DNA from: Gammaproteobacteria bacterium
GTDB taxonomy: Bacteria; Pseudomonadota; Gammaproteobacteria; SZUA-152
Reading direction: 5' to 3'
Assembly (NCBI GenBank): GCA_021647505.1
Contig: JAKIUN010000004.1
Coordinates: 37,118-101,117 of the forward strand
DNA: 64,000 nucleotides
Shown: one piece after another, positions 7,837 through 64,000 of the stretch
Layout: each line of letters starts with the position of its first letter
How positions within the stretch are numbered: the first letter of the stretch is position 1
Made by a program: the position numbers and the translations under genes
Notes under the pieces: generated by a model
Seen by the model: only the letters and a program-made list of their open reading frames with translations
Told to the model about the DNA's origin: nothing
Database searches by the model: none

Positions 7837-8165
7837 TTTGCTACTCCTTTGTTGTTGATTGTTGTTTTCTTGACCAGACAAGCGCCTGAATCGGGTGCCG
7901 AAACAGCCTACCCAAGTCCGGCAGGCTCTCAGCAGACAGCGTCAGTGGTACCGATACTGGACTGGCGGGGCACTTTTCGATGCCCCCGCTGACAAGCCCG
8001 GCTGTCTGCAGGCTGCTAAGTATACCTTCCCATTATGAAAAATGTCGCACTTGTCACACTTGTGTGTACTTATCCGCTCAGTAGCAGCCTGCTCAGCTGG
8101 CCGGTTCACTCAACGGCTTCCAGGTAGGCCCTGCGTGGTTTGGCCTGACGCTGCGGTCGTGCAGA
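7837..8165. other. Gene-free spacer upstream of csp
   Basis: About 330 bp between the csp start and the dctM stop. GC-rich imperfect repeats ('GTCCGGCAGGCT' and 'GTCTGCAGGCTGC') are visible. It probably holds the csp promoter and 5' leader. No gene is supported. Confidence 0.4.
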
Positions 8166-14256: not shown

Positions 14257-14561
14257 GTTTGGTTTATTATTTTCATTCAGACCTTATTCCCAGAAAATCA
14301 CTGTGTCAAGCCAAAATCCCAGGAAAATATACTGGCGAAAATGCGTGATTTGGTGCGGCTTCTCCACTTTATGTTCACACCTAATGGGTTTATTGTGACT
14401 GGGTTTCACACTTTATTCGTTTTCAGCAATTAGTTTCAAATCTGACACTTTTCTGGTGTATGGTATCAATGGGAATGCCCTTTCAACGCTCCCGTTTTCA
14501 CCCGGTCGCCGTCCCTTGCCCGACGGACAATGTCGCTTCAGTTGTGGAGATCAGATCAAAC
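14257..14561. other. AT-rich gene-free spacer
   Basis: About 300 bp of AT-rich DNA between the hydrolase fragment and the small exported protein. I see no gene, hairpin or repeat that I can support. Confidence 0.4.
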
Positions 14562-14945
14562 ATGAATACCCTATGGCACGGCCTTCTCATCACCTCTTTC
14601 ATCCTCGCCTGTATGCTTGGCGGCCTCACAATGGCGGCTCCGACGGAGGACAATTATCAACCGATGGGGCCTCGTGACGTAAGATGCGGAATCACTAATT
14701 TCAGTTATGACGGGGTAATGGACGGCCTACGGATGGTAAAGCCGACAAGCGGAAAAGTTGGGCTTTTCCTCTGTGAAAACCAAAAAATTGAACTGGCAAG
14801 CCCGAACTTTGAAGACGGCTTCATCCTCACCCGGAATTACGGCAAAATTAAGGTGCGCTTTGGTATGTCATTGTCGGGCACCCTGTTTACTCTATGGATG
14901 ACCCCCGAGCAGAAAGAGATGCTGATAAAGCTGCGCCAACAGTGA
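14562..14945 (+). CDS. Small exported protein of unknown function
   Basis: The protein has 127 residues. The ATG at 14562 gives a clear signal peptide ('LLITSFILACMLGGLTMAA'). The ORF start at 14460 adds 34 residues without a leader, so I prefer the inner start. The mature part has two cysteines ('DVRCGITNF' and 'LFLCENQ') that could form one disulphide, and several short beta stretches. I do not recognise a family. A 145-bp inverted-repeat element begins 10 bp after the stop. Confidence 0.55.
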   Translation: MNTLWHGLLITSFILACMLGGLTMAAPTEDNYQPMGPRDVRCGITNFSYDGVMDGLRMVKPTSGKVGLFLCENQKIELASPNFEDGFILTRNYGKIKVRFGMSLSGTLFTLWMTPEQKEMLIKLRQQ

Positions 14946-14954
14946 GATGCTTGC

Positions 14955-15099
14955 AAAACCCCTGAGGGAGTTTCCGGCAAGGCAAAAATAGCCAAGTCAA
15001 CAACCACCCGCCAATGCCGACGGGTTGGCTTTACAGGCTGGAAGTCTGCATACGAGTCGATTTTTAACACGGGTCAGGAGAAACTATCTCAGGGGTTTT
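14955..15099. repeat. 145-bp inverted-repeat element
   Basis: AAAACCCCTGAGGGAGTTTC at the left end faces GAAACTATCTCAGGGGTTTT at the right end. Inside it, the stretch from 'CAACCACCCGCC' to 'GCATACGAGTCG' is similar to DNA just downstream of metH (54.58–54.65 kb), so it is a dispersed element. No protein is encoded. Confidence 0.6.
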
Positions 15100-15273
15100 A
15101 CACATAGCTCCAGAAATCCGGGATCCCAATACCACAACAGAACAGGCGGCAGGTACGCATATACCTGCAAAGACCGAGTAAGCCGTTCAGCAAATATACA
15201 TTCATGGCCCCATACCCTCCTATGTAAATCCCGATAACAGCAGGGACATGCACGGCACCAGAGGTAACAGATC

Positions 15274-16044
15274 ATGAGCTGGCGATTTTTCATTCCATTC
15301 ACGGAACTCCCCCTAGTACAGCGCGTGGTCTACACCAGCACCCTGCTGATCCTCGGCCTTGGCTACGCCTTTGCCAGCCTGTACGTGTTTGAGTCCCATG
15401 CGGGACGGGACGGCGACCCCATGCTGACGGTGGAAGACCTGATCATCGCCTACAGCGGCAGCAAGACCAGCACTCGTCTGGAGTCCTCTCTGATGGGCCC
15501 CATGTCGAACATGCTGCCGCCGGAAGAAAACCTACAAATCATCGACTGGGTACGCCGCGGTGCGAGTGAAGAGGAATACAAAAACACCACCGCCGCCATT
15601 TTCAAACAACGCTGCGTAGCCTGCCACAACAACCGCAACCCCCACCTCGCCAGCCTGGAAGGCTACGAGAACATCAAGCTGACGGCTGAACAGGACACCG
15701 GCGTAGATATCTATACCCTGGTGCGCGTCTCACATATCCACCTGTTCGGGCTGACCTTCATCTTCTTCATTGTCAGCACTATCTTCAGCCACGCCTACCT
15801 ACGCCACGAGTGGCTCAAGATCGCCATCGTCACCACCCCCTTCGTCGCCATTGTCCTGGACATCTCCTCCTGGTATATCACCAAGATATACGAACCCTAC
15901 GCATGGATGCTGATCATCAGCGGCGCCTTCATGGGCGCGAGCTTTGCCGTGCAGTTTGTCATCTCTCTGTATCAAATGTGGTTCTTCACACTGCCTGAAG
16001 ATGCCGAGACCGTCAGCGACATCGTTCGTCACCAGTACGACTAA
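15274..16044 (+). CDS. Membrane-bound monohaem cytochrome c-like protein
   Basis: The protein has 256 residues with a membrane helix at about 18–38 and three or four more in the C-terminal half (from about 145). A single haem c motif, CVACH, lies at residues 114–118 in the periplasmic part between them. It is followed 12 bp later by a six-haem lipoprotein cytochrome, so the pair probably forms an electron-transfer unit in the inner membrane and periplasm. AGAGG lies before the ATG. I do not know a characterised homologue. Confidence 0.75.
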   Translation: MSWRFFIPFTELPLVQRVVYTSTLLILGLGYAFASLYVFESHAGRDGDPMLTVEDLIIAYSGSKTSTRLESSLMGPMSNMLPPEENLQIIDWVRRGASEEEYKNTTAAIFKQRCVACHNNRNPHLASLEGYENIKLTAEQDTGVDIYTLVRVSHIHLFGLTFIFFIVSTIFSHAYLRHEWLKIAIVTTPFVAIVLDISSWYITKIYEPYAWMLIISGAFMGASFAVQFVISLYQMWFFTLPEDAETVSDIVRHQYD

Positions 16045-16056
16045 AATACACACATC

Positions 16057-17826
16057 ATGATCTGGCGATACGGCACTATCATTCTCCTCACCTGGCTACT
16101 CGTGGCCTGTGAGGACGGCAAAGAAACCGCCACCATTGAGTCCATCCCCACGCCTCGGGAGGTCATCGAGAAACCGCTGCTGGTCGGTGACGTCGAAGCC
16201 GGCAAGGCCCTCGCCGCAGACTGCGCCACATGCCATGGCATGGACGGCGTGCTGGCTCAAAGCGGCTCCCCCTTCATTGCCGGACTGGAGCAGGACTACC
16301 TGATCCGTTCCCTGCTAGCCTACGCCGACGGCTCACGAAAACACGACAAGATGAAGGCCATCGTCGACGCTCTTGGCCCCGACAAACTGGCCGATGTCTC
16401 CGCCTATTACGCACAACTGGACACCCCCTGGCGCGGCGCCGTGCGGAGTACGCAATCCAAACTCACCCTGCAGGACAAACAGACTATCGCCGCCGGAGCA
16501 AAGCTCGCCGAACGCTGTAACTCCTGCCACGGCGCTGACGGCAATGCCGCACGTTCGGACGTGGTGCCCCGCCTCGCCGGCATGTCCCTGGAATACTTCA
16601 TCCCCGCCATGGAAAGCTATTTCAACGGCAAGCGTCAGCACGGCATCATGAAACTGTTCAAGACATCCACCAACGAACGAGATATCCACAACCTTGCCGC
16701 CTACTACGCCACCCGCACACCGAAGATGGCCCCCCCTTCTCGCCATCACAAGGCAGACCCGGCCGCAGGCAAGGTCGTCGCCGCCACCGCCTGTGCCGGC
16801 TGCCACGGTTATGACGGCAACAGCCTCAACCCCTACATGCCCAACCTCGCCGGCCAGCCCATGGAATACCTAATCAAGGCCACCAAAGACTACCGCGACG
16901 GGCGGCGCAAAGAAGTGCTGATGCAGGAACCCGTCAACCACCTGAGCAACAAAACCATTGCCAACATCGCCGCCTACTACGCACACCAGCGGCCGCAAAC
17001 ACCACTCAGCGAAGGCCCCAATGACAGTGGCGCCTTCGACCCGCTGGCCGACGGCGCGAAGATCGCCGCCTCCTGTAACGGCTGCCACGGTGACCGCGGC
17101 AACAGCCAGAAGGCCGGCGTCCCCAGCCTCACCGGCCTGCACGAAAAATACCTGGTTACTGTCATCAAGGCCTACCAACGAGGCACCCGCCAGCACGACC
17201 TGATGCGTAAGCTGGTCTCCCACTTCAGCGACACCGATATCGAAAAAGTCAGTTTTTACTATGCCCTGCAGGAACCGGGAAAACGGCAAAACACCGCCGA
17301 GGGCGACCCCGCCGCCGGCCACCGACTCAGCGAATCCTGTGCCGTATGCCACGGCGAAGGCGGCATCAGTAAAGACCCCTTCACCCCCAGCCTAGCCGGA
17401 CAGGACGCCCGCTACCTTGTCCACGCCACGCAAGCCTATGCCAGCGGCGTGTACCAAAACGACAAGATGCAGGCCCCAGCCCAGGCCCTCAGCGAGACCG
17501 AGATCCGCGACCTCAGTGCCTACTACGCCGCCCAGCCACCGCAGCGCTCGGAAACCTGGCCACCGGAGCCACCACAATTTCTCATCAAAGAACGCTGCGA
17601 CCGCTGCCACGGCGAACGCGGCTTCAGCACCCACCCCGGCAATCCGCGTCTGGCCGGACAATCCGAGGCCTACCTGATTCTCGCCATGCAGGAATATCAG
17701 GACGGCACTCGCACCAGCCAGACCATGCACGCCATGGCCGATGTGTTGAGCCTGTTGGAAATCAAGGCCGTAGCGGCCTATTACGCCCGGCAGACAGCGG
17801 ACGGAGAAGAAAACAGCGCCCCGTAA
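16057..17826 (+). CDS. Six-haem c-type cytochrome lipoprotein
   Basis: The protein has 589 residues. It begins with a lipoprotein signal ending in lipobox 'LVAC'. Six tandem cytochrome c domains of ~90 residues follow, with haem motifs CATCH (56), CNSCH (154), CAGCH (246), CNGCH (340), CAVCH (428) and CDRCH (514). Each repeat also has 'LAGQ..YL' and ends in '..AYYA', a c4/c553-type pattern. The protein should be membrane-anchored and face the periplasm, passing electrons along the haem chain. It is coupled to the upstream membrane cytochrome gene. The electron donor and acceptor are unknown. Confidence 0.85.
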   Translation: MIWRYGTIILLTWLLVACEDGKETATIESIPTPREVIEKPLLVGDVEAGKALAADCATCHGMDGVLAQSGSPFIAGLEQDYLIRSLLAYADGSRKHDKMKAIVDALGPDKLADVSAYYAQLDTPWRGAVRSTQSKLTLQDKQTIAAGAKLAERCNSCHGADGNAARSDVVPRLAGMSLEYFIPAMESYFNGKRQHGIMKLFKTSTNERDIHNLAAYYATRTPKMAPPSRHHKADPAAGKVVAATACAGCHGYDGNSLNPYMPNLAGQPMEYLIKATKDYRDGRRKEVLMQEPVNHLSNKTIANIAAYYAHQRPQTPLSEGPNDSGAFDPLADGAKIAASCNGCHGDRGNSQKAGVPSLTGLHEKYLVTVIKAYQRGTRQHDLMRKLVSHFSDTDIEKVSFYYALQEPGKRQNTAEGDPAAGHRLSESCAVCHGEGGISKDPFTPSLAGQDARYLVHATQAYASGVYQNDKMQAPAQALSETEIRDLSAYYAAQPPQRSETWPPEPPQFLIKERCDRCHGERGFSTHPGNPRLAGQSEAYLILAMQEYQDGTRTSQTMHAMADVLSLLEIKAVAAYYARQTADGEENSAP

Positions 17827-34181: not shown

Positions 34182-34930
34182 AGGTATTGATCGTCGATGA
34201 TGAACCGCTGGCCCGCACCCGCCTGGTACGCCTGCTGAATGATATGGACGAGATCGAAACCGCTGGCGAAGCCGGCACCGGGCGCGAGGCGATTGAGCTG
34301 ACCGATGAGCTAAGTCCGGATATCGTCCTGCTCGATATCCGTATGCCGGAAATGGACGGACTTGAGGCCGCCATGCACCTGTCACAACTCGACAGCCCAC
34401 CGGCAATCATTTTCACCACCGCCTACAATGAGCACGCCCTGGCCGCCTTCGAGGCCAATGCCGTGGACTATCTATTGAAACCCATTCGCCACGAACGTCT
34501 GGCGGATGCCTTGGCCCGGGCACGACGTATCAACCGTGCCCAGTTGCTCGACATCGGCCAACAGGAAGGCAACGAAGAGGGTGCACATGCACGCACCCAC
34601 ATCAGCGCCACCATAGGCGGCAGTTTGCAGTTAATTCCCGCTGCAGAAATAATCTATTTTCAGGCTGAACAGAAATACGTCACGGTACGACATCTTGGTG
34701 GACAGTTGCTAATCGATGATCCACTGAAGTCACTGGAGGTGGAATTCGGTGACCGCTTCCTACGCGTGCACCGCAACTCCCTGGTCGCCATGCAGTCGGT
34801 GCAGGGCCTGGAGCGTATCCCCGGCGGGCGCTATGAAATCTTTTTCCGCACCATCGATGACCGGCTAGAGGTCAGCCGGCGACTGGCAACGACCGTGCGC
34901 AAACGCTTGAAGGGTTTGGGTCAGGGCTGA
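34178..34930 (+). CDS. algR: LytTR-type response regulator AlgR
   Basis: The protein has 250 residues. Residues 1–~120 form a receiver domain with acidic pocket 'VDDEP', phosphorylated Asp53 in 'LLDIRMPEMDG' and the conserved 'LLKPI' lysine. Residues ~145–248 form a LytTR DNA-binding domain ('FQAEQKYVTVRHLGGQLLID', 'LRVHRNSLVA'). It is coupled to algZ by a 4-bp overlap. In pseudomonads hemC follows; here a block of exported proteins follows instead. Confidence 0.93.
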   Translation: MKVLIVDDEPLARTRLVRLLNDMDEIETAGEAGTGREAIELTDELSPDIVLLDIRMPEMDGLEAAMHLSQLDSPPAIIFTTAYNEHALAAFEANAVDYLLKPIRHERLADALARARRINRAQLLDIGQQEGNEEGAHARTHISATIGGSLQLIPAAEIIYFQAEQKYVTVRHLGGQLLIDDPLKSLEVEFGDRFLRVHRNSLVAMQSVQGLERIPGGRYEIFFRTIDDRLEVSRRLATTVRKRLKGLGQG

Positions 34931-35250
34931 ATCAGGCACATAGCAATAAAAACTGTTCACCATGGAGGCACGGAGCACAACCGTTCTCACCATCAAATAT
35001 TTACTGACAAAAATGCAAACGACGCGATTCGCTAGCAAACACCAGCATCCTACATTAACGATCAAAGCAATTTTCCTGCGAACTTCATCAGCAACAAACG
35101 ATCCAGCAGAAAACTATTTCGCTATAAAAAACAAGGCATACAGGGTATTGTACTGTCGGTTCAAACGCTTAGACATTTGAATAAAAGGCCTAAGCAGTAG
35201 GCTGCGAGGAACTCACCCCAAAGAGATTAACAATAAACGGGCGGGAAGAA
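34931..35250. other. AT-rich spacer at a synteny break
   Basis: About 320 bp, clearly more AT-rich than the genes to the left. No gene is supported; the 72-residue ORF at 34962 has no ribosome site and no recognisable fold. It marks the border between the conserved argH–algZR block and the Ig-lipoprotein cluster. Confidence 0.45.
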
Positions 35251-36258
35251 ATGAAACAATCAACTATAATTACCAGGTTTTTACTGGCCTCGCTGATATC
35301 AGTATTACTACTGGCATGCGCCAGTGAAAATAATGATGATAACGGGAAAGGTGACGGCAATCAGGTGCCGGTGATCAGCGGCACTCCCGCCACTACCGTC
35401 AATGAAGGCAGCGCCTATCACTTTACACCAACAGCCTCCGATGGTGACAGCGATGACAGCCTTACCTTCGCGATAAGCAACAAACCCGCCTGGGCCAGCT
35501 TCAATAACCAGATGGGTGTTCTTAGAGGCACACCCGGCCTGGACGATGCGGCTGATTATAACAACATCATCATCAGCGTCAGTGACGGTAGCGCCTCGGC
35601 CCAGCTGCCCGCCTTTACCATCACGGTCGTCGATGTCAGCCCAGCACTTGAGGTTAACACGCACAGCCCCACCACCCTGGCGAACGACACAGCGTTGCAC
35701 AGCAACATCACGATCACGTTCAATGCCCCACTGGATATGGCGACGGTGACAAGCACTTCGGTAACACTGCAAGGAACAAGCAACACAGCCATCCAAACCA
35801 CACTGAGCACGAACAATCAAACCATTACCATTGACCCAGCCAGTAACCTTGAGCCGCTTACAACCTACACCGTCACCATCACTACCGCCGTTACCAGTGC
35901 AGATGGGGCGGTATTGGATCGTGATTATTCCTGGGGTTTCACCACCGTGGAAAGCTCTGTGATTGATCCATCAAGAGTGACTGTCAACCTCGGTTGGAAT
36001 GCCGGTGATGTTACCAATACCGACATATCGCCCAGCGGTTACTCGATCTATTACGGTCGCCAAAGTGGCAGTCTCACCGACAACATTGATGTTGGCATGA
36101 CCACATCAAGAGCATTAAGTGGCAGCGAATTCAATTTCACTGACATTGGTGAATACTACTTCCATGTCGTGGCCTATAACGTAGATAAGTCCCTGTTCTC
36201 TGCGCCCAGCACAGAAGTAATGATTGATATCCGTCCACAATTTACAGGGCAAAAATAA
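35251..36258 (+). CDS. Ig-module lipoprotein A (He_PIG, Big_5, FN3-like)
   Basis: The protein has 335 residues with lipobox 'LLAC'. An Asn/Asp-rich linker is followed by a putative-Ig (He_PIG) module at ~40–128 ('NEGSAYHFTPTASD', 'WASFNNQMGVLRGTPG'), a Big_5-type module at ~130–232 ('ITITFNAPLDMATVTSTSV', 'YSWGFTT'), and a C-terminal FN3-like module ('VTVNLGWNAGDVTNTD', 'YYFHVVAYNVDKS'). The first two modules are nearly the same as in the lipoprotein at 37888. Its stop overlaps the start of the hydrolase gene as TAATG. Surface carbohydrate binding is plausible but not shown. Confidence 0.75.
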   Translation: MKQSTIITRFLLASLISVLLLACASENNDDNGKGDGNQVPVISGTPATTVNEGSAYHFTPTASDGDSDDSLTFAISNKPAWASFNNQMGVLRGTPGLDDAADYNNIIISVSDGSASAQLPAFTITVVDVSPALEVNTHSPTTLANDTALHSNITITFNAPLDMATVTSTSVTLQGTSNTAIQTTLSTNNQTITIDPASNLEPLTTYTVTITTAVTSADGAVLDRDYSWGFTTVESSVIDPSRVTVNLGWNAGDVTNTDISPSGYSIYYGRQSGSLTDNIDVGMTTSRALSGSEFNFTDIGEYYFHVVAYNVDKSLFSAPSTEVMIDIRPQFTGQK

Positions 36259-37799
36259 TGACGTTTTTTACACAACAACAAAAACACAAACTTTTTCAAT
36301 ACCCGCTCCAGAGGCATTCTTTACTCGGCGCTGTCATGGTCTCACTGGCACTACTGGCCGGCTCGGCAAGCGCACAAAACTTCCCGCACATAAAAACATT
36401 TGGTTTTGACTATGCTCCCCTGAATAATCGCCTAGCGGAGGCCACATGGCTGGCACAGCATCATGATTGGATTATAGGGGGTGGCAACAACTGGGACACA
36501 CAGCTCTATAACACTATTAAGGAGGCAAACCCTGACACCAAGATCATGCGTTATTTGGCTTACCATAGCATCGCCCCTGATGCTATGACTTGGCTTGAAA
36601 ACTGGGCAGATAATAATGGCTACGATCCGGAAGATATTTACTATCACTATCATACTGACTCTGAAGTGAAAACACTCAGCGGCAGCATAACCGTACCGGG
36701 CTTTGGGCCAAATGGTAGTGCGGCCATGCTTGAAGAGGCACGCGCACGTGTACGCTGGAATGGTGGTTGGGTAGGCATTAACCCATCTTCAACAGTTTTC
36801 CGGCGCGCCTTTGAGGCATATGCACTGTATGAAATCAGCGTCGCCGGATCTCCCGGCACCTTTTTGGACGGTGTATTTCTGGATACTTTCGATGGCATAC
36901 AAAATAGCGGGCCATGGACCAGCAATTTACAAAACACGATTGAACTAAACCCGGATGGCAGCCGTAGTATTGAGGCGGTCTACAACCAAGTGCAGCAAGA
37001 CCTCCTAGACGCCAAAATGGAGCTGGAAGCATTTCTCAAACGACAGACCGGTAATAATTCATTTGTAGTCAACGTCAACGCCGCTGATGCCGATATTGTC
37101 TATCAGTGGTTCCCTGACCTTTATGTGGACGAGCGCGACAAAACAATGCATCTCACTATCGAGTATATGGTGACAAGTACCAGCGGAAGGTCTCGCATTC
37201 CCCGCCTTAGGGATGTTTATGACGATCTAGAAAATGGTCGCAAAATGCTAATCCGCAGTCAAACCAATGTCAGCTCAAATATGCAGGATATTCCCTATGG
37301 ATTTACCCGCTTCATCCTGGCAACACATTATCTGATAAACCACGAAAATGCCCATTTTATGTATCATGAAGGTAATGCCGGCAACTATGGTGGCACTCCC
37401 TATGGCAACTTCCGAACCAGTCATTGGCATAGAAACATGGAGATAAATATTGGCGTGCCTGCCACGCGAGCAGGTACTGACTCGTGGGGCACTGAAAATA
37501 CTGACCGTTTTTATGAGCTTGCCGGCGGCAGCGGCTACAGTGTCCTGGCCCGTGAGTATTCCAACGCACTGGTAGTGGCAAAATTTGGACGTGGTGGATG
37601 GGCGAATATTGGCAACAACTCGGCCATTTATCAACTGGGTGGCAACTATTACCCCCTGCTCGAAGACAACAGCACGGGTGCTGCCGTTACCAGTGTGACG
37701 CTGGGTGAGAGCGAGGGTGTTATTTTACTTAAAAACCCGGTGATTGGCCACCTTCCACGCCCACAAATCACCGAATCGAGCTTTGCAATAAGGCCATAA
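36258..37799 (+). CDS. Putative secreted glycoside hydrolase (GHL15-like)
   Basis: The protein has 513 residues with an N-terminal export signal ending 'LLAGSASAQ'. The body looks like a TIM-barrel hydrolase of the uncharacterised GHL15 group: 'HIKTFGFDYAPLNNRLAEA', 'DTKIMRYLAYHSI', and 'GTFLDGVFLDTFDG', the last with acidic residues at a strand end that are candidate catalytic groups. The family and reaction are unproven. It is translationally coupled to the preceding Ig lipoprotein and followed by a second one, suggesting the three proteins work on the same polysaccharide. Confidence 0.62.
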   Translation: MTFFTQQQKHKLFQYPLQRHSLLGAVMVSLALLAGSASAQNFPHIKTFGFDYAPLNNRLAEATWLAQHHDWIIGGGNNWDTQLYNTIKEANPDTKIMRYLAYHSIAPDAMTWLENWADNNGYDPEDIYYHYHTDSEVKTLSGSITVPGFGPNGSAAMLEEARARVRWNGGWVGINPSSTVFRRAFEAYALYEISVAGSPGTFLDGVFLDTFDGIQNSGPWTSNLQNTIELNPDGSRSIEAVYNQVQQDLLDAKMELEAFLKRQTGNNSFVVNVNAADADIVYQWFPDLYVDERDKTMHLTIEYMVTSTSGRSRIPRLRDVYDDLENGRKMLIRSQTNVSSNMQDIPYGFTRFILATHYLINHENAHFMYHEGNAGNYGGTPYGNFRTSHWHRNMEINIGVPATRAGTDSWGTENTDRFYELAGGSGYSVLAREYSNALVVAKFGRGGWANIGNNSAIYQLGGNYYPLLEDNSTGAAVTSVTLGESEGVILLKNPVIGHLPRPQITESSFAIRP

Positions 37800-37887
37800 A
37801 TTACGGATATCAAACGGCACAATGAAGATGTCGCTAATTGGAATTAAGGGTTCGCACAACAATAACTTAAATTCGGCAGGTAAAGAA

Positions 37888-39681
37888 ATGAAACAAGAAA
37901 ATATTATCTTTAGGCTTTTATTGACCGGACTTGTATCAGGATTATTAATGTCATGCGATGGCGAAAGTGACAATGGCGGGGAAGGTGATATCAATCAGGA
38001 ACCAACGATCACTGGCACTCCTGCTAACAGCGTCGATGAAGGCGCCAGCTACAGCTTTACTCCGACGGCCTCCGACAGTGATGGTGATGCACTCACATTC
38101 TCAGTCATCAACAAGCCGTCTTGGGCCAGCTTTAATAACCAGACGGGTATTCTCGACGGCACACCCGGCCCGGACGATGCGGATGATTATCGCAACATTA
38201 TCATCAGCGTCAGCGACGGCACCGCCTCAGCCCAGCTGTCCGCCTTTACAATCTCGGTCGCCGATGTCAGCCAGGCACTTGTGGTTGGCACACACAGCCC
38301 CACCTCCCAGGCAGCGGGTACACCACTGCACAGCAAGATTACCATCACCTTTAATGCCCCACTGGATTCAGCAACGGTGACAGACACTTCGATTACACTG
38401 CAAGGAACAAGCAACACAGTCATTTCCGCCGCACTGAGCACGGATAATCAAACCATTACCATTGACCCAGCCAGTGATCTTGAACCACTCACGACCTACG
38501 CCGTCACCGTCACCACTGCCGTTACCAGTACAAATGGGGAGGCATTGGATAGCGATTATTCCTGGAGCTTCACCACCCTGGCAGGCTCACCCATCCCGGA
38601 AATTGCACAATGGGAAGCGAACATGCTGGCAGCAGGTGAACGATGGGGACAGTTTCTGAGCGATCTGAACCCGGCCCTGGGCACCTATAACGAGATGAAC
38701 ACAAATTATTATGATGGACAGAGAGTGTATTTCCAGATCGCCGATTATACCGGCCAGGAAGAACCATGGAATACCTATGCCCAGGAGGCAGAGCGTATCT
38801 ATATGAACTATTTGGTGCCGCATGATTTTAGCATGCCGGGCTACCGACGCTTTGCAGAAGGTATCTACATGGATTATGTCCGCACCGGCGATAGCTTTGC
38901 CTACGAGAATATTGTCAAAATCCGTGATAACCCCGCATTTTCAAACGCGGGTACCCGGCGAATCTCTGTTCCAGCATGGTACAGAGAGCGCAGTTCACGA
39001 GAGATTGCTTATTCGCTGGAAGCCCATATCTTTGCTGAACGCGTCGATCACCCACGAGATGAAGCCGACGTAGCCCGCTATGTGACCATGGCGTTGAACC
39101 ATATCAACGAGTGGATTACCGGTGAATTTAGTGATCCCGACAGGCATCGCCGCGCACCGTTTATGTTTGGCCTTACCGCCGAGGCATTGATCATGTTCTA
39201 TGAATGGGAGCTGGATAATGGCCGCGACCCCACGGCCCTTTACAACCATGCCTCCGTACCCACGGAGTTTGTCCCCACCCTGACGATTCCGGAAGCCCTC
39301 AAGGCAATGGCGGATTATCTATACGATGAGGCCGTCGTGGAATCCGGCGATAACATAGGGAAGCCTATGTGGGTGGCCGATCTTGGCGGCACCCGAGGCA
39401 ACTGGAATGATCTGGGGGGAACTGGCTATGCCGCCTTTCGTTACGAGGATATCAAGGGAGGAGCACCCGCTCCAGATTTGAATTTGATGATTGCACCGAT
39501 TTATGCCTGGCTGTTCCAGTATTATGGTGAGATGAAGCACATCACGATTGCGGATCAGTTGTTTATCGGTGGTGTTAATCTCTCCAACGTCAACAGGAAT
39601 ACCAAGATTTTCAATCAGAATTACCGCTGGAGTTTTAACTATATCAAATGGCGCAATGAAGGTTTTGCCAAGTGGAATTAA
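37888..39681 (+). CDS. Ig-module lipoprotein B with a large unknown C-terminal domain
   Basis: The protein has 597 residues. The ATG at 37888 follows AGG and gives a lipoprotein signal with 'LMSC'; the ORF start at 37822 adds spacer residues. Residues ~35–230 repeat the He_PIG and Big_5 modules of lipoprotein A ('WASFNNQTGILDGTPG', 'ITITFNAPLDSATVTDTSI'). The remaining ~365 residues are mostly helical, with many Tyr/Trp and short helix-turn repeats, and could be an alpha/alpha-toroid catalytic domain of a polysaccharide enzyme. That is an inference from composition only. Confidence 0.68.
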   Translation: MKQENIIFRLLLTGLVSGLLMSCDGESDNGGEGDINQEPTITGTPANSVDEGASYSFTPTASDSDGDALTFSVINKPSWASFNNQTGILDGTPGPDDADDYRNIIISVSDGTASAQLSAFTISVADVSQALVVGTHSPTSQAAGTPLHSKITITFNAPLDSATVTDTSITLQGTSNTVISAALSTDNQTITIDPASDLEPLTTYAVTVTTAVTSTNGEALDSDYSWSFTTLAGSPIPEIAQWEANMLAAGERWGQFLSDLNPALGTYNEMNTNYYDGQRVYFQIADYTGQEEPWNTYAQEAERIYMNYLVPHDFSMPGYRRFAEGIYMDYVRTGDSFAYENIVKIRDNPAFSNAGTRRISVPAWYRERSSREIAYSLEAHIFAERVDHPRDEADVARYVTMALNHINEWITGEFSDPDRHRRAPFMFGLTAEALIMFYEWELDNGRDPTALYNHASVPTEFVPTLTIPEALKAMADYLYDEAVVESGDNIGKPMWVADLGGTRGNWNDLGGTGYAAFRYEDIKGGAPAPDLNLMIAPIYAWLFQYYGEMKHITIADQLFIGGVNLSNVNRNTKIFNQNYRWSFNYIKWRNEGFAKWN

Positions 39682-39778
39682 TCCTGGATTCCACTTCATT
39701 CCATCCAGGCTACTTTTCTTTGCAGCCTTTCTGGTAAACGATAAACCGAAGAAGGAGTTTGCGGTATTTGGAAAAACC

Positions 39779-39806
39779 ATCGCGGGCATGGCCCGCTCCT
39801 ACGGGG
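39779..39806. repeat. REP-like element
   Basis: ATCGCGGGCATGGCCCGCTC followed by CTACGGGG; the core GCGGGCATGGCCCGC forms a hairpin. It is the same family as the pair at 50.7 kb. It lies between two convergent genes and overlaps the last bases of the thioredoxin-like gene. Confidence 0.65.
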
Positions 39807-55333: not shown

Positions 55334-57106
55334 TTATTGACTCATTTCAAGCAGATCATTATCCCACTTTGCGAGTGCATAATCGTTCAGAATATTAGGC
55401 AGCGCCGATGGATCTTTCACCACTATATAGCGCCACAATCCCATTGTGCCATCTTCATTCACTGCGTTCACCCATCGTTTTGCAGCCTTGGCCTTTAGGT
55501 CAGCGTCATCACCATATTGGCCTTTGGTTTCAATCACCAGTGTAAGTCCGATATCGAGTACGGCAATAAAGTCAGGGATATAACGCGCCGGGACACCATT
55601 TTTTCGATACGGAATTACAAACCCCATGTGTTCGTTCTTAACCCATTTGATTACGCCGGGATGGGTATCCAATGCAAAACCTGCACTTTGCTCCCACTTC
55701 TTCGTATCAGCCACCATGGCATTCAAATGACAATGATTTACGGGGTAAATATTTTTTGTTGTGTGGTAGTCAACATAACGAGTGCTTCCACGTCCTGCTG
55801 ATCCTTTCGGGATACGTGGTAGCTCCCGACTCTCAGTCAATCCACACTTGCGGATAGCTTCAAACAGAATATCAACCGCTTGCTGCTGATATGTGCCAAC
55901 CCAAAGCACATCGCATGGTTGAGCAGTACTTGTCTTGCAGATAATCTTTTCTTGAATAAATCGTTTTGCTGCAAAAGCAACCTTAGGAAACAGAGTCTGA
56001 ACAGGTACAGCATCTTTAGTATCGTCAGAGGCCAACCCTTGTTCTTTTTCCCATCTATTACAAACCTCTCTCGCAAGAACAAACGCTACTTGCTGATCAC
56101 GGAATTGTTTACGCCAACCGGCCAGAGTTAAGACAGGATTTTGTCCGGGCCCATAAACGGCTAGCGCCCCTTCCGGGGCTGTCATCGAATTCATCTCGGT
56201 TTGATCGGGTATGCTCATAGGATCAATCGTCAACTGTGAGACCTGATCCCAGGCAATACTTACTTCGAAGGTTTTCGGGCTGTAGTAGCCTTCTACCAGA
56301 GGGAACTCTATTTCATATTGCTCCTTATCTGGGTCACTAAAAATATGGTTGGGCTCTTTTGGCGGCTTACTATCTTTTGGCTTAGAAACTTTGAACGGCA
56401 CCAGTTCAAAAGGCACGCCAAATACTTTGGCGGTCTCTTCTTCAAACTGATCGGTCTCTTCATTCAAGGCATAACTACGACGGCGCAGTGCACGGCCAAC
56501 GACCTGCTCACACAACAACTGAGAACCGAAAGGACGCAGACCAACGATATGAGTCACGGTGTTGGCATCCCATCCTTCGGTCAGCATGGCTACGGAGACG
56601 ATGCAGCGGATATTCCTGCCCGGAGGGATACGTTCATCAATCCATTTATAACTGCCATCATTGTCATCAGCCTCGGCCTTTTCGTTATTTTTACGAACCA
56701 GCTCTGACCATTCTTCTGGTACCTTGCCACCTGGCCAGGATTTTTTACCAATGGTATCGAGAATAAAACGCAGACGCCGAGTTTCATCTTTGCTGCCGCC
56801 TTCCTCCAGGTCTTCTACCACTTTGGAGTCAACACGAACGGTGACCTCATTACCCGTTTGATTACGAAACCATTCCGGTGCCTGGCCATAACCACCTTCG
56901 TTATAGCCTAACCAGCTATAGACCTCTGCAGCCACCTTGGTGTCACGGCAGACTACGATAAATACCGGAGGCACCGGGTGTATTTCATCCTTGCTGTCCT
57001 GTTTCCACTGCTGAAAACGCTTGTGCCAATCCTGCGCCAATGTCGTAATGGGGGCAGAAGCATAGGTCATTACGATCTGAGGATTGATTTTCTTTCCCAG
57101 GCTCCT
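55334..57106 (-). pseudogene. Type III-like restriction subunit Res, 3' part after a frameshift
   Basis: This frame continues the helicase-nuclease begun at 58481. It has helicase motifs V–VI ('MLTEGWDANTVTHIVGLRPF', 'QVVGRALRR') and, near the end, a PD-(D/E)XK nuclease site with 'YIPDFIAVLD' and 'LVIETKGQYGDDA'. Joined to the first part, the protein would have about 1048 residues, the normal length. The ORF track starts it at 57400, but residues before ~57100 are out of frame with the homologous protein. It is the last gene of the defence operon and was probably translated as one protein before the frameshift. Confidence 0.8.
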
Positions 57107-58481
57107 TTTCCGCCATCGATTCAATCCACCGCCATACATTAAAGTAACTGGCCTCTTCGGCTCCGGTAATATCGCGTGTTGGTAATTGAGGAATCTTGAC
57201 CAGCCCTGATTCAATGGCATCCAGTAAACCAAAATCGGAGACAACCCAGGGGAACGGTTTGCCCACTTCATTGCCCGAACCTTGAATGTAAAACGGGGTA
57301 GCGGAAAGGTCGAAGCAATATTTAACCCCTTTCTTTCGGCCACCCGCCAGCTTGTTGATTCGATCCAGACCTTCAATCCAGATCGTCGCTTCTCTAGCAT
57401 TCTTTTTGGCTAAAGAGGCATCTTCTTCCAGATCAACGAGATTATTGCTGTCACCACGGCGATAGGCATGATGCGATTCATCATTAAAAATAAGCCAATG
57501 CGGGCTGCGACCTTTGCCCGACCCCAGCTCCTGGCGAATACGTTTAAACCAGGCCCGGTCAGACTCAAAATACTTTACCTCGATCGACTCATTGGCCTTT
57601 CCTGCATTCTTTACAATCTCTGTTGCCTCACCGGTTTTTACGACCTTTGCCGATGTTCCATTAACACTGCTGGACTCCTTCTTCGCCAAACGGTGCCAGT
57701 TGGCAATCATCACCTCACCCCGGCGCAGTTCTTCCATGCGATGTGGCGGCACTAGCTGACGAGTGCGATAAAGACTGTTATCTCCATGGGCAGGATCGAG
57801 TTCCTGGAGTCGCTCCCGAATGGTGACATTAGGGCAGACGATGAGGATGGTATCCGAGAAACGATCATCGGTCGGTGCTGCAACACAGTTCAGAATCGAC
57901 CATGCCGAAAGCATGCCCATCACGGTGGTTTTGCCCGTCCCCGTTGCCATCTTGCAGGCGTAGCGGGTAAAAGCCCTAAACCCGGCCTCCCTCGCATTTT
58001 CACCGGGGTGATCCACAGGTATTTCAGGCATCCCCTTACGGTAGATGGGATTGGCTTCCACCAAAAAGATGATCGTCTCGACCGCTTCTACCTGGGCAAA
58101 GAAGAGGCGTTGTTTTCGCAGTGAACTGTCACCCCGCCATAAAACCAGCAGCTCTTTGGTGATGCTGGATGCGCCATCGTATGGAATGCCTGTCAATTTT
58201 CCGTCACGCCACTCCTTCGTGCGGTTACGCAGCCAATTGACCAAGGGTAGATCCTCCTGCTGGCCGATGCCTAAATCACCTTCGAGGCTCAACTGTTTTT
58301 TGTTCTTGCGCCCCCGGCCACTGCTCTCTGGAACCCGGTAGTAATAACTTGCGGGCCGTCTGCCGGTTGCCTGTATCGGCAGTTTTCCTTTCTCAATCTG
58401 CCAATGCTGGGCAGGCTCAACAAAGGGGGAGTTGATGATCGGAGACTCAACCTCATTGGGGGCAACAAGCTTTTCAGACAT
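56985..58481 (-). pseudogene. Type III-like restriction subunit Res, 5' part with frameshift
   Basis: This is the N-terminal half of a DEAD/DEAH helicase-type restriction subunit. It has Walker A 'MATGTGKTTVMGML', DEAD-like box 'NDESHHAY' and 'SATPFYIQGSG'. Homologous reading ends at residue ~462; the last ~36 residues come from the wrong frame. At ~57095 the minus strand reads GGGAAAGAAAATC. Removing one A restores 'GKKINPQIVMTY', which continues in the other frame. It starts 11 bp after the zinc-finger antitoxin gene. It is likely non-functional as a nuclease, unless the slip is corrected during expression. Confidence 0.8.
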
Positions 58482-58492
58482 GGAAACAGACC

Positions 58493-58720
58493 TCAGGCTG
58501 CAAACCGCCGCACTTCAATCTCTGCACCATTGGCAACCGCCTCTTCCGCCATGGTCAGAACCTGTTCTGTCATCTCATTGGAGAGATAATATTCACCACA
58601 ATTTTCGCAGACATCCGCCGGAACGCCTTTGATTACCATGGTTGTAGCATCCCGCTCCAGCGTTACCGTGGCTGTTCCCGGCTGAGTATCACCCTGTTTA
58701 CAGATTACACATTGCATCAC
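58493..58720 (-). CDS. YgiT-type zinc-finger antitoxin
   Basis: The protein has 75 residues. Two CxxC pairs (CVIC at 4–7 and CENC at 38–41) form the zinc knuckle of the MqsA/YgiT type. 'VPADVCENCGEYYLSNEMTE' is the family core. The helix-turn-helix that full MqsA carries is absent. The start overlaps the stop of the DUF4258 gene as ATGA, giving the toxin-first order also seen in mqsRA. It presumably neutralises that toxin. It lies 11 bp before res. Confidence 0.85.
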   Translation of the reverse strand: MMQCVICKQGDTQPGTATVTLERDATTMVIKGVPADVCENCGEYYLSNEMTEQVLTMAEEAVANGAEIEVRRFAA

Positions 58721-59001
58721 TTTATCCTCGTTTTGAACCCATTAGACCATAGCGCGCCATCTGGAATATATGCCGTAATGATAATACAGCTACCGTCTAT
58801 TTTGTTCTGTGCCAGCACAACATGAACCGGCTTTTCTGCGGCAAAACCAAGCAGCAGAAAACTGGGATGCGGTCGGTCATCCGGATAGCTGGCAACTGTC
58901 TCGCCCCTGGTAACAATATCCGTTACCTCCTGCCTTTTGATATCACGCTGAAACATACGCCGAACAGCATGGCCGCTGAATGAGATCGTGCGGCATTTCA
59001 T
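58717..59001 (-). CDS. DUF4258 toxin-like protein
   Basis: The protein has 94 residues and a BrnT/RelE-like small fold. It has the DUF4258 start 'ISFSGHAVRRMFQRDIKRQE' (HxxxRMxxR) and the strand pattern 'PVHVVLAQNKIDGSCIIITAYIPD'. DUF4258 proteins are usually toxins paired with a zinc-finger antitoxin, as here, and probably act on RNA. The start overlaps the mod stop as ATGA, so the pair is built into the restriction operon rather than merely near it. It is intact. Confidence 0.83.
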   Translation of the reverse strand: MKCRTISFSGHAVRRMFQRDIKRQEVTDIVTRGETVASYPDDRPHPSFLLLGFAAEKPVHVVLAQNKIDGSCIIITAYIPDGALWSNGFKTRIK

Positions 59002-61322
59002 AAATCGGCCTCCCGCACCACCATCAACTCATTGCCCCGCTCATCAATCACCTTCACCGCAATGCGCTGGTGTTGACCCAGCACGAACGACTCAGAGGTG
59101 GTGCCAGCCAGATGCTCCCATACAGAATCATCAAATTTTGCCTTGAGTGATTTCTGCAGATTGCTCCAGGCCGATGTTTTCGGGAAGAAGACCTGCCGCG
59201 CCATGAACACCATGCCGTTGTAGTCGGTATCCAGCATCCAGCAAGGCAGGTTTTCGGCATGGATGGATTCTGTTTCCATGTCGTGGGGGCGGAAGATGTC
59301 CAGCCCCAACAGTTCCACCTGATAGAGGGGATCGCCATTGGGCGCCTTGTCACCATTAGGTTTGAAGGCCACATCCGGCAGGCCGGTGATGGAGAAGATT
59401 TCCGAGGACTTGCTGGTCTTGAGTAGATCGGACATCACTACATCGGGGGTGACGGCCACATAGGTGCAGGGCAGTTTCAGTTTACCCCGGTCAGAAACCA
59501 GCTCACGCGCCTTGGCCTGGATGGCAAAACCGAAGATATAGAGCGCATCAAATTTTCTGAACCAGGCTTCGCGGGCAGCCTCCAGCACGGCACTAGAATC
59601 AATGGCTCCATCCTGCGGGCCGAACATCACCGCAATGCGCCGGGATGCGCCGTTTTTTTCCGTCGCCTCGGCGTGCAAATGCTCATAGTCTTCCGCCGCC
59701 AGAGGTCGTACCAGTTCCAGTTCCAGCGCCTTGTTACCGGGGAGGCGCAGGGTTTTGCTCTGGCGCAATACCTCGATCATGCGATCCAGATAGGTGCGGG
59801 GGTTCTCGGTCACTCCCGGCCTCCTGCCTCCCGTGACACTCGCACCTCCCTGTGCATCGTGGGCAGCGGCGGTCTCTTTGATGGCATCCTGCTCTTCCAG
59901 CATAGAACCGGCAGCCTGGATGGTGGCTTCCACAGTGAAGGGGCCACAGACACGAGTGATCTTTTTATTGATCTCTGGTTTATCCACCAGGGTAACGGTT
60001 TCCGGCTCGTCATTGTTTGCGATGGATTTCAATGTAATATGAGGAACCAAGCCACCGATTTCTTGACCTTTACGATTTTGTTTGCGGTTATATACAAAAC
60101 CACCAGCCGGGCCGCGTTGCGGTTCCTTCAGTTCATACCAGAGGAAAGTGGCAGTCAGCAGGCGTTGACGTGCCAAGGCTAGTGGAACACGGGAGGTATC
60201 GCAGGTAATCCAGCGGCGTCCCCATTGTTCAGCAACGTAAGCGGTAGTACCGGAGCCACAGGTGGGATCAAGAACAAGATCACCAGGATCTGTAGCCATT
60301 AGTATACATCGCTGAATAACCGTATTTAACGTCTGAACAGCATAGATAATATCTTTTGGGCCAGACATATCAGACCATAAATTTGTTAGGGTGCTCACTG
60401 GATAATCTTCATGAAAAAGCTTGTAATATAAATTCTCTCCAGCTGCAAAAACCCGCTTGGCTCTTTTTAAATTATTCATTCCGGCTTCAGTGGTTGACCA
60501 ACACCCCCCTTTAGCTGGCTTATAAATTTCCCCTTTAAACTCAACATCATAAACCATGCTATCTGAGTATCCAGATGGCCTCATAAGCACTGCACGGAAA
60601 ATCTTTGAGCCATTTAGCAATAAGGCATGATTGTTTTTTTCCTCATTTGTCATTTTGCGTTCAGTCCCATCAGGACGTTGAACGTAGACCCAATTTGGCA
60701 CGCCCTCAATATTTTGCTTCTGGAATAAGTGCCTGTATTTTAATTTTTCTTTTCGTTTAGCATAAAACAACAAGAAATCATTCATTCCCTCTAAATACTT
60801 AGAGCCAAATTGCATCGTCTTTTTTCGAAATGTAACTATGCTGATAAAGTTATCCCTTCCAAAGACTTCATCCATGACTTCCCGTACATGATGCAAATTC
60901 TTATCCGAAATCTGCACAAAAATACTACCACTCTCGGTCAATAACTCCCGCGCCAACATCAACCGATCACGCAGATAAGTCAGATAGGAGTGAATCCCCA
61001 ACTCCCAGGTATCCCGATACGCCTTCACCATCTCCGGTTCACGAATCATCTCGTCATCCTTGCCGTGCTTCACATCCCGCTTGCGCACAAAGGGCTGAAA
61101 GTTAGAACCAAACTTAACCCCATAGGGCGGGTCCATATAGATCATCTGCACCTGACCACCCAACCCCTCATACTCCAGCAGGGAGTTCATCACCTGTAGC
61201 GAATCCCCAAGCATCATGCGATTGGTCCAGGGGCCATTGTGTTCGTAGGCATCCAGCTTGTCGGTAATATCCAGATCAGGGTCGCCAAACAGATCCAGCG
61301 TGGTACCTGTTGCCTTGTTAAC
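58998..61322 (-). pseudogene. Type III-like DNA methyltransferase Mod, main part after a frameshift
   Basis: About 774 residues. This part carries catalytic motif IV 'MIYMDPPYGVKFGSNF' and, near residue 380, motif I 'DLVLDPTCGSGTTAYVAEQW', a beta-class order typical of N6-adenine methyltransferases such as type III Mod. The frame homologous to the family begins at ~61322 ('LDLFGDPDLDITDKLDAYEH'); ORF residues upstream of that are a shadow. The N-terminal 152 residues lie in another frame. The next in-frame ATG is ~100 bp inside, so a truncated but possibly active protein might be made. Its stop overlaps the DUF4258 toxin start. Confidence 0.8.
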
Positions 61323-61776
61323 CCTCCAGCGTCTCCAGAATGGCCTGCGTGGAGTGACGCTCATGGACGAACAACGGTATGGTCGGCACCGCAATCTGTC
61401 GGCGCTCCGCCTTGCCGGTCCAGTTGAGAAAGGGTTGAGTCAAACTCTTGAGCCGGGCGACGCACTCGGCAATCGAGGCAAACACCTCATTGGTGCCTTG
61501 CCATTGCTTCGATTGTGCAAAGACCGTTTGTTCGCCTTTATCTGCTGCCTCTGCAATCAAGTTCAACAACCACTCGGTCATCTCCCGCTCGGCATTTTCA
61601 TCCCAGCACAATTCGGGCGCCAGAGATGAGTCATAGCGATATTTTTTGGCTGGCTTGCGGGCATCAAATTCCGGCTGTACCCCTACGTCCGGTCGCTGTA
61701 CTGCCTCCTGCTCATGGGTGTAGGTATTGGATTGCTGCGCCTTGTCGTTACCTTGCTTGTTTTTTCTTGCGGCCAT
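61318..61776 (-). pseudogene. Type III-like DNA methyltransferase Mod, N-terminal part
   Basis: 152 residues: a lysine-rich start ('MAARKNKQGNDKAQQ'), then 'LCWDENAEREMTEWLLNLIA' and 'VPTIPLFVHERHSTQAILET'. This is the region found before the catalytic domain in ~930-residue methyltransferases of this type. It ends at TAA (61318–61320) while the continuing sequence is in the next frame, so a one-step frameshift at ~61320 splits the gene. It begins 3 bp after the original end of rhuM. Confidence 0.72.
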
Positions 61777-61779
61777 GTC

Positions 61780-61986
61780 TTAGTCCTGATTTTTTTTGGT
61801 TTTACTCAAGGTTTTTGATTGCTCAATCAGCTTGTCAAAATCTGATTTGTGCTGTTGATCCTGCTCAATGCGAAATTTCTTATATTCTTTTTCCGCCAGG
61901 GCTTTGGCGACCTGTGCAGAAACATTGCCGGGGTTGTCCAGGACTTCATAATCATTAAAGCGCAGAAAGGCATCCAGTTTTTCCAC
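61780..61986 (-). pseudogene. C-terminal part of rhuM beyond an amber codon
   Basis: 68 residues in the same frame as rhuM, directly after its TAG. 'VEKLDAFLRFNDYEVLDNPG' and 'VAKALAEKEYKKFRIEQDQQ' are the normal end of RhuM proteins. The GTG after the stop could in principle restart translation. Confidence 0.8.
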
Positions 61987-62805
61987 CTAATCTGCCATTT
62001 TCATTAAATGCTGTTTTTTGGCCTGTAGCTCGGCGTAATCGAGATACATGACAACAATGTGGTTGAGTTCATCCAGTTCCTGTTCACTCAAATAGTTTTT
62101 CGCAACGCCTACATCGGTTTTCAGGATTTTTCCTGCGGGTGCGTTTTTCCATGTGGTCAAGCCCATGTGTGGCTGGTTTTTGTTGACTCGCTGTTTTATC
62201 ACCTCTGCCGCTGTCATGCCGTGGATGGCCCAATGCAGCTTGTTTTGCACGGTTGCATAGAATGTTTGGGTGAATTCTGACGCCGGATCATAATCGGCCG
62301 AGCATTGAGCATAGATGTCGGTGATTTTCTGGTAGAAACGGCGCTCAGAGGCACGAATCTCCCGGATTTTTTCCAGCAGTTCGTCAAAATAGTCTTTGCC
62401 AAAGTGAATACCGTTTTTCAAGCGTTCACTATCCAGAGCAAAGCCCTTGATGATGAACTCTTTCAGAGTTTGGGTGGCCCAGATGCGAAACTGTGTGGCC
62501 TGAATGGAATTGACCCGGTAGCCCACAGCGATGATGGCACCCAGGCTGTAGTATTGGGTGCGATAGGTTTTGCCGTCAGTGGCAGTATGTTCCAAAATGG
62601 AACATACTGAATCCTCTTCTAACTCTTTGTTTTCATATATATTTTTCAGGTGTTTGGTGATAGTGGGCCGCTGAACGCCAAACAGCTCGGCCATGCGCTT
62701 TTGGGTCAACCAGAGAGTCTCGTCCTGTGCCAAAACATCAATCTTTACGTCGCCATCCTTACTTCGATAGAGAAGAATTTCGGAGTCTTTGGGTAAATCT
62801 TTCAT
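61987..62805 (-). CDS. rhuM: RhuM family protein, truncated by an in-frame amber stop
   Basis: 272 residues up to the TAG. The start at 62805 follows AGGAA and gives the family N-terminus ('EILLYRSKDGDVKIDVLAQD', then 'WLTQKRMAELFGVQRPTITK', a DNA-binding helix-turn-helix-like part). The RhuM core 'YYSLGAIIAVGYRVNSIQAT' and 'RIWATQTLKEFIIKGF' follows. Family members continue with '..ADW..KLDAFL..'; here Trp is replaced by TAG (TGG to TAG), followed in frame by the normal C-terminus. RhuM proteins often lie in defence and mobile regions, and their role is unclear. Confidence 0.85.
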   Translation of the reverse strand: MKDLPKDSEILLYRSKDGDVKIDVLAQDETLWLTQKRMAELFGVQRPTITKHLKNIYENKELEEDSVCSILEHTATDGKTYRTQYYSLGAIIAVGYRVNSIQATQFRIWATQTLKEFIIKGFALDSERLKNGIHFGKDYFDELLEKIREIRASERRFYQKITDIYAQCSADYDPASEFTQTFYATVQNKLHWAIHGMTAAEVIKQRVNKNQPHMGLTTWKNAPAGKILKTDVGVAKNYLSEQELDELNHIVVMYLDYAELQAKKQHLMKMAD

Positions 62806-62809
62806 TATG

Positions 62810-63872
62810 TTATTCCTGCTCCAACCAGGCACCGGAAACCCATTGGTTGTTTTCCGGGTGTAGATGTTGGTTGCTGACTTCAGCCAGCCTTCTGTCTGCG
62901 GCACCTTCTGTTGCTTCAAACCATGATCTGTTCTGTTCACGATCAATAGTAACATCCCCTGTCTGTGCCGGTTGCTTCAGCCATTCACTGAAGGCTTGCG
63001 GGTTGACGGTAACCTGTCCATCAGCTGCAATCTCGTAAGCCGTATACTCCTGTCGCATGCGTTGGCCCTGATCATTCTGCCAGCGCAGCAGGCTGGTCAG
63101 GATGGCGGCTCCATCCAGATTATCTGACTGAATAACAGCACTAAGCCCCATGAAGTCGTAGCTTTTCGCCTTGCGGATCAGGTACTGCATCAGGAAGGAG
63201 TCCAGATCCAGCATGTGCGTGCCAGGCCGGTTGATAGCGAGGATACGATCCAAAGTGACTTCGTAACGGCTCCTGGTGACGCCCAGCTCCTGTTGCACTG
63301 GCTCCGGCAGACGGATGTGCCAGAGCAGCTCGTTATGCGTGGTATCCACGACTTCTATATCCAACTGCTGGAACATGCCCTGTACAAAGGCGGCACCGTG
63401 CTCCTGGCTGATTCTCAGCTCATGACGAGTTTCGTCTGGGTCAAAGCTGGCCGCATGTTCAAACAACTCTCGCTGTTTGGCGGTTGCCGCCTTTGCTCTG
63501 GCCAGCGCTTCGTCTATGCGTTCCTGTGTACGGTGGATGCCTGCAACGGTGGCTTCTGCCAAAATCTTGCTCACATCCATCAGGTCGGCAATTTCTCCCA
63601 GAATATCGTCCTGCATCTGTTCATTAAACTCGCTGCTGACCCCGGCCATATCATTCACAACCTGATCGATACGGGTGTACATCAGATCAATGATTTGCTC
63701 ATCAGCAGTATCCGGGGAGTGAACATTGAACACAACGACGCGCTTTTGTTGGCCGTAACGATATAGTCGGCCTATACGCTGGACGAGACGCATGGGATTC
63801 CATGGCAGATCGTAGTTGACCATAATGTGGCACTTGCGCTGCAAGTTGATGCCTTCGCCACCAGCCTCAGTG
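62810..63872 (-). pseudogene. SNF2-type helicase, C-terminal fragment cut by an IS
   Basis: About 353 residues. It begins in helicase motif V ('TEAGGEGINLQRKCHIMVNY') and includes motif VI 'MRLVQRIGRLYRYGQQKRVV', followed by a ~280-residue accessory C-terminal region. The N-terminal ATPase half is missing: homology stops at ~63872, exactly where an ISL3-type end begins. SNF2 helicases of this kind accompany methyltransferases in several defence systems. The gene was first in the operon and ends 4 bp before rhuM. Confidence 0.8.
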
Positions 63873-64000
63873 GGGCTCTTCGTAAAACTGTGTGAAATTC
63901 CGGTAAAATACCCTGCTTTAGCCATTGATTGGAGCGGTTTTTTCCATGGACATAGAAGAGCATTACAGCCAGCTACTGGGTGTCAATTCCCCGTGGGATA
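63873..64000 (+). mobile_element. Left end of an ISL3-family insertion sequence (partial)
   Basis: The terminus GGGCTCTTCGTAAAACTG resembles ISL3-family inverted repeats (which start GGCTCTT). A transposase reading frame opens 72 bp inside. The helicase frame is interrupted at this base. The rest of the element is outside the window, so the right end and target duplication cannot be checked. Confidence 0.7.
63945..64000 (+). CDS. ISL3-family transposase, N-terminal start (partial)
   Basis: GGAG lies before the ATG at 63945. The visible residues 'MDIEEHYSQLLGVNSPW' match the beginning of ISL3-type transposases ('..Y..LLGI.SPW..'). Only 18 codons are in the window, so the assignment leans on the adjoining terminal repeat. 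Confidence 0.65.

Follow-up and report, generated by a model that had tools for sequence, protein, structure and literature searches.

A most likely acquired gene trio with a mosaic lipoprotein and two undescribed enzyme-like families as a candidate exopolysaccharide-depolymerising unit

In a 64,000-nucleotide stretch of a gammaproteobacterial assembly (3.7 Mb, 98% complete), here called the window, three open reading frames follow one another on the plus strand at 35251-39681, which raises the question of what they do together and how they came to lie between algR and a thioredoxin-like gene. A bacterium from a deep-sea vent is a member of the host's family. A preliminary description of the sequence had proposed a three-gene cluster in which the first lipoprotein gene is coupled by TAATG to that of a hydrolase; both the cluster and the motif were found, the latter at 36256-36260, where the stop codon of gene A and the start codon of gene B overlap by one base. 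The products A, B and C are 335, 513 and probably 597 amino acids (aa) long. The features of the locus are the following:

34920-39771, no strand assigned: segment, most likely acquired, at a variable site between algR and the thioredoxin-like gene (break in DNA homology to the relative G003; GC content)
35251-36258, plus strand: gene A, lipoprotein with an Ig anchor (Big_9/He_PIG-like and Big_5) and a C-terminal FN3-like domain (ORF, Pfam, homologue at locus L007)
35251-35319, plus strand: signal peptide of lipoprotein A, as far as the lipobox Cys23 (LLAC), read from the sequence
35962-36237, plus strand: FN3-like C-terminal domain of A (position read from the sequence, the fn3 match being to the whole protein; conserved in L007)
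36258-37799, plus strand: gene B, signal peptide (residues 1-39) and predicted TIM-barrel glycosidase-like core of 455 aa (ORF, alignment, model)
36378-37742, plus strand: B core as aligned (family alignment A6)
36882-36884, plus strand: B core residue Asp169 (in GVFLDTFDG), a candidate nucleophile, invariant in 12 of 12 homologues including that of a phage
37161-37163, plus strand: B core residue Glu262 (in LTIEY), a candidate acid/base, without exception among the 11 homologues that cover this position
37888-39681, plus strand: gene C, lipoprotein (LMSC, Cys23) with a He_PIG and Big_5 anchor and an alpha/alpha-toroid core (ORF open from 37822, with 37888 as the likely start)
37888-38583, plus strand: anchor module of C (Ig domains 71-74% identical to those of A)
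38590-39678, plus strand: core of C, a new family with a predicted alpha/alpha-toroid fold (Pfam at E<=10 without a relevant match; AlphaFold; homologues in alignment A5)

Compared with G003, a relative in which the site is empty, DNA homology ends at about 34919 and restarts at about 39772. In G003 about 240 bp lie between algR and the thioredoxin gene, and about 220 unrelated bp occupy the place of the trio. The same gap in G004 holds four different exported-looking genes and a 78-bp remnant of the algR 3' end; such a remnant was sought downstream of C in the window and was not found. The GC content of the segment is 0.43-0.51 (0.49-0.51 in the trio) and that of the flanks 0.58-0.61. The gap between algR and the thioredoxin-like gene is a variable site with the trio as its cargo, and the trio is most likely a horizontally acquired cluster. 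A sigma-70 promoter or a terminator for the trio was sought, and none was convincing. Within the genus the gap (window 34930-39799; L082:1996-6989 in G004) varies in content, the G004 set including a subtilisin-like protease and lipoproteins. Two other features of the window were recorded: a low-GC cluster at 55334-63925, probably a type III restriction-modification island, in which a ResIII-type helicase, an N6/N4 DNA methylase and RhuM are encoded, and a multi-domain cytochrome c protein (589 aa) at 14460-17826, preceded by two ORFs without Pfam matches.

Proteins A and C both begin with a lipoprotein signal whose lipobox cysteine is residue 23 (LLAC and LMSC, respectively, by inspection), and the signal peptide of B is plain. 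Translation of C probably starts at 37888 (MKQENIIFRLLL), matching the start of A (MKQSTIITRFLL), rather than at 37822. The preliminary description had regarded the two lipoproteins (its B is C here) as paralogues sharing Ig modules. The anchor supports this, with 68% protein identity over 238 aa and 80% DNA identity over 618 bp, and Big_5 was significant in both (E 1e-18 in A, 2e-19 in C); He_PIG, however, was significant in C only (E 2e-8), the first Ig module of A having no score other than a sub-threshold one for Big_9 (E 4e-4). Different C-terminal domains, also anticipated, were confirmed: about 90 aa at the C terminus of A lie outside the shared module, the whole protein scoring with fn3 (E 9e-6), and C ends in a domain of 363 aa predicted with high confidence to be all-helical. 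Against its nearest homologue, L048b, C showed 72% identity in the core, 43% in Big_5 and 25% in the He_PIG region, whereas against A the same two Ig modules were 74% and 71% identical. With a core so close to L048b and an anchor closer to A, C is, on these alignments, demonstrably a chimera, a core joined to a local A-type anchor. This mosaic is the best support for the earlier idea of a common module that presents different domains.

The lipoproteins would lie at the cell surface. In C, the Ig modules would space the toroid core from the membrane, and A would be its catalytically empty sibling, with the FN3-like domain in place of the toroid, probably serving as a spacer or binding partner. 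Adhesion or matrix binding, in which the Ig/FN3 lipoproteins and the enzyme-like folds would bind glycan without catalysis, could account for the several Ig/FN3-type modules, for A having no catalytic domain and for the different surface proteins at the same site in a relative. It is nevertheless improbable in our judgement, since the acidic pair of B is invariant across bacteria and phage, C has a conserved polar set, and homologues keep the company of polysaccharide-utilisation loci (PULs).

B matched no Pfam family, and 12 members of its family searched up to E=10 returned neither GHL15 nor any other relevant family; 15 members of the C family likewise gave no relevant match at E<=10, including GH76 (PF03663) and the PL and epimerase families. 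NCBIfam searches and single-sequence and profile searches of PDB sequences yielded nothing useful for B or for the C core. As far as these searches reach, the sequences of B and of the C core therefore form families that have not been described. Each is about 50-88% identical across two phyla, so that both are real genes under selection.

Structure prediction, proposed in the preliminary description for both proteins, gave a TIM barrel for B and an alpha/alpha-toroid for C. The AlphaFold model of B was moderate (mean pLDDT 69, pTM 0.68): strands and helices alternate as in a TIM barrel, and the C-terminal beta region behind them is modelled poorly (pLDDT <50). Its best Foldseek matches in the PDB were GH168 fucanases (E 2.7e-10 to 8e-8), with GH191 and PgaB next (E<1e-4) and PelA further down, a fold ranking that, given the quality of the model and of its C-terminal region, is not a substrate assignment. 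Viral models returned generic barrels only. The GH168 endo-fucanases (Fun168A, MeGH168, PbFucA) have a TIM barrel and then a C-terminal antiparallel beta region, as well as a catalytic Asp/Glu pair; in B the barrel is predicted, the beta region comes from the low-confidence part of the model, and D169/E262 is the candidate pair. They differ in sequence: no similarity is detectable, identity over the structural alignment is 11-15%, and the B family profile (A6) found no GH168 chain at E<=10 among all PDB chains. D169 sits at the end of a barrel strand in the B model, and D169 and E262 are invariant among B homologues down to 39% identity; H63, N135, N234, R293, H322 and H349-W-H351 are also conserved between the window and phage proteins. 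The catalytic pairs are Asp167/Glu237 in MeGH168 (PMC12210190) and Asp156/Glu225 in TmGH191 (PMC12054363); the order of the two residues is the same in B, and their spacing is 93 residues versus 70 and 69. We infer catalysis from this resemblance: as in retaining glycosidases of the GH168/GH191 type, D169 would be the nucleophile and E262 the acid/base of a secreted or periplasmic TIM-barrel enzyme, most likely one that hydrolyses a polymer internally.

The preliminary description had instead taken B for a GHL15-like hydrolase, with galactosaminoglycan-like polymers as a suggested substrate. The B model does have the TIM-barrel fold of GHL15 (PF14885), a fold common to dozens of families, and the galactosaminidase-type barrels of GH191, GH114 and GH166 (TM1410, PelA) share the general barrel and the Asp/Glu pair (PMC12054363), GH191 galactosaminidases and PelA being among the fold matches. 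However, none of the 12 family members gave a GHL15 hit or a PF03537 (GH114) hit at E<=10, and the GH191/PelA match was weaker than that to the GH168 fucanases, which fit better. An hhalign comparison of B and C with GHL15, GH114 and GH76 sequences found no match, although it was a weak comparison, most of the Bacteroidota GHL15 hits being spurious barrels and the ORF picks being mixed, and counts only as missing support. The GHL15 identity of B is not supported by sequence, a distant TIM-barrel resemblance being what is left of it, and we consider a GHL15/GH114-like galactosaminoglycan hydrolase very unlikely.

The C core was modelled well (pLDDT 89.7, pTM 0.91) as about a dozen helices in an alpha/alpha-toroid. 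Foldseek matches in the PDB all had E values of at least 0.017, the nearest folds being AprG and the GH76 (E 0.02-0.1), AGE and GH88 enzymes. The core is predicted to have the toroid topology of the GH76, GlcNAc 2-epimerase (AGE) and GH88 alpha/alpha-barrels, but the best E value is about 0.02 with a TM score of about 0.5, there is no sequence or profile link, and the invariant Asp-Asp pair of GH76 is lacking. The residues invariant in the family are E9, D42, E138, D322, Y40, Y41, H171, Y285, N298, N342, N344 and R346; since Tyr, His, Asn and Arg stand beside Asp and Glu, hydrolase and lyase/epimerase chemistry are both compatible. By either chemistry, the core would act on the same polymer as B.

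The genome collection contained six B loci with 52-83% identity: L004 and L007 from a gammaproteobacterium of the same family, L005 and L006 from Cyclobacteriaceae, and L008 and L009 from Flavobacteriaceae. The MAG codes D100SM and D96SM are those of hydrothermal chimneys, active ones, on the Southwest Indian Ridge (PMC9174799). In the B tree, the window gene and L004 were nested in an otherwise Bacteroidota clade (support 100/100), which indicates that B moved between phyla. Two B types lie side by side in Bacteroidota genomes, and one is present in the window. Among 396 sampled Bacteroidota genomes, B was found, apart from G058, only in G098 (39% identity), where it has no signal peptide and lies on a contig of 46.8 kb (contig C44, locus L053) in a run of genes, all in one direction, that also encodes an SU10-type major capsid protein, the large subunit of a terminase, an endolysin and a protein weakly matching a tail protein. 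The contig is that of a phage, and the place of B in it would suit a tail depolymerase. Like phage tail depolymerases, this candidate virion protein is encoded among virion genes and lacks a signal peptide; unlike them, it would be a TIM barrel, a beta-helix spike being the more usual fold. Searches of phage and plasmid record collections and of viral contigs revealed no relatives of B or C. The phage contig was binned in a Bacteroidota genome, with the B-family protein between structural genes, and a loop insert of about 90 aa in the phage protein also occurs in L005:7984-9675, L006:6083-7759 and L008:11783-13426.

B and C are a real pair. C homologues adjoin B in L005, L006 and L008, with two copies each in L005 and L006; all four Bacteroidota genomes with a chromosomal B also carry C (in G061 as a contig-end fragment), in most cases within or close to polysaccharide-utilisation genes, and none of 395 other sampled Bacteroidota genomes has it. 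The A-B pair is kept in L007, in which a beta-helix-like protein, an A homologue (8148-9440) and B adjoin. Conservation of the whole trio, which the preliminary description had named as a test, was not borne out, A-B-C occurring together in no other genome examined. Among gammaproteobacteria, C was present in 6 of 369 genomes, this one included, and B was absent from the other five. At L048, C lies in an exopolysaccharide (EPS) cluster with an O-antigen polymerase (Wzy), glycosyltransferases and two sulfotransferases; at L050 and L051 it is near glycosyltransferase genes, L052 is a four-copy array and L049 a contig end. A 3.3-kb C-bearing block is 98.9% identical between L050 and L051 (L050:1-3320; L051:9069-12388), which belong to different families, and has transposase genes at its borders, indicating recent movement. 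The four C-family genes of L052 (6752-13424) stand near-tandem beside glycosyltransferase and polysaccharide-modification-like genes.

In Bacteroidota, the surroundings of L005 comprise GH20, GH109, an AXE1-like esterase, two copies each of B and C, a Sortilin/BNR protein and two sulfatases, with SusC/SusD on the same contig. The Bacteroidota homologues are accompanied by PUL components (SusC/SusD with CAZymes and sulfatases), as on contig C179 of G058 with SusC/SusD, sulfatases, GH20 and GH109. On contig C48 of G060, right-handed beta-helix proteins and a GH9 enzyme surround the second C. The gene of MeGH168 likewise belongs to a PUL, a marine one that includes sulfatases (PMC12210190). Neither SusC/SusD nor sulfatases were seen next to the trio in the window. 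T9SS sorting domains (Por_Secre_tail) are found on the Bacteroidota B, C and beta-helix proteins and are absent from the gammaproteobacterial members; with a lipoprotein anchor in one host and T9SS in the other, the export route varies while the cores stay. Secreted right-handed beta-helix-like proteins accompany B or C at L007:6271-8100, L009:8338-9984 and L095:7294-14133, and may supply the set with a third enzyme; for most of them Pfam gave no catalytic match.

The expected co-occurrence with exopolysaccharide genes holds for C homologues in gammaproteobacterial clusters but not for the window, where the genes scanned around the trio included no recognisable EPS cluster. The former observation could mean that C works in the periplasm, as a toroid lyase or a C5-epimerase-like enzyme, and trims or edits the cell's own EPS at export, with B as a companion editing hydrolase, much as AlgL or PelA act on their own polymers. 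The C core, rich in invariant Tyr, His, Asn and Arg, would suit such a role, and C has Asp at position +2 after the lipobox cysteine, which by the E. coli rule would favour retention in the inner membrane. We hold it to be rather unlikely, because the scan of window genes showed no EPS cluster around the trio, the Bacteroidota pair is exported by T9SS and located within or close to catabolic PULs, B is carried by a phage, and C matches no PL or epimerase family of Pfam.

The best explanation, and in our estimate a fairly probable one, is a laterally acquired, surface-anchored unit that depolymerises a bacterial, probably sulfated, exopolysaccharide. Homologues occur in three independent settings, the catabolic PULs, the cluster for EPS biosynthesis and the structural region of a phage, and all three indicate a bacterial exopolysaccharide; sulfatases or sulfotransferases in two of them suggest that it is sulfated, and the polymer would most likely be that of vent or marine bacteria. 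Of the surface polysaccharide unit with a common anchor envisaged at the outset, the chimeric C, the predicted glycosidase-like barrel and toroid, and the PUL and EPS loci of homologues uphold the outline; GHL15 and galactosaminoglycan lack such support.

The locus is a clear case of an anchor module spliced before a different, putatively catalytic core after transfer, and it supplies two candidates for new CAZy families. More tentatively, with the balance against it, B and C may each found a new CAZyme family, one a GH and the other an alpha/alpha-toroid hydrolase or lyase, both acting on a single sulfated EPS of vent and marine gammaproteobacteria, C serving EPS processing in the producers, B-C catabolism in Bacteroidota and B phage entry, with the genes moving among these players. 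In one habitat, then, different players may produce, consume and attack the same polysaccharide. Enzyme-like families without a current Pfam model, common to two distant phyla and a phage, would suggest that vent and marine biofilms contain a polysaccharide not yet characterised.
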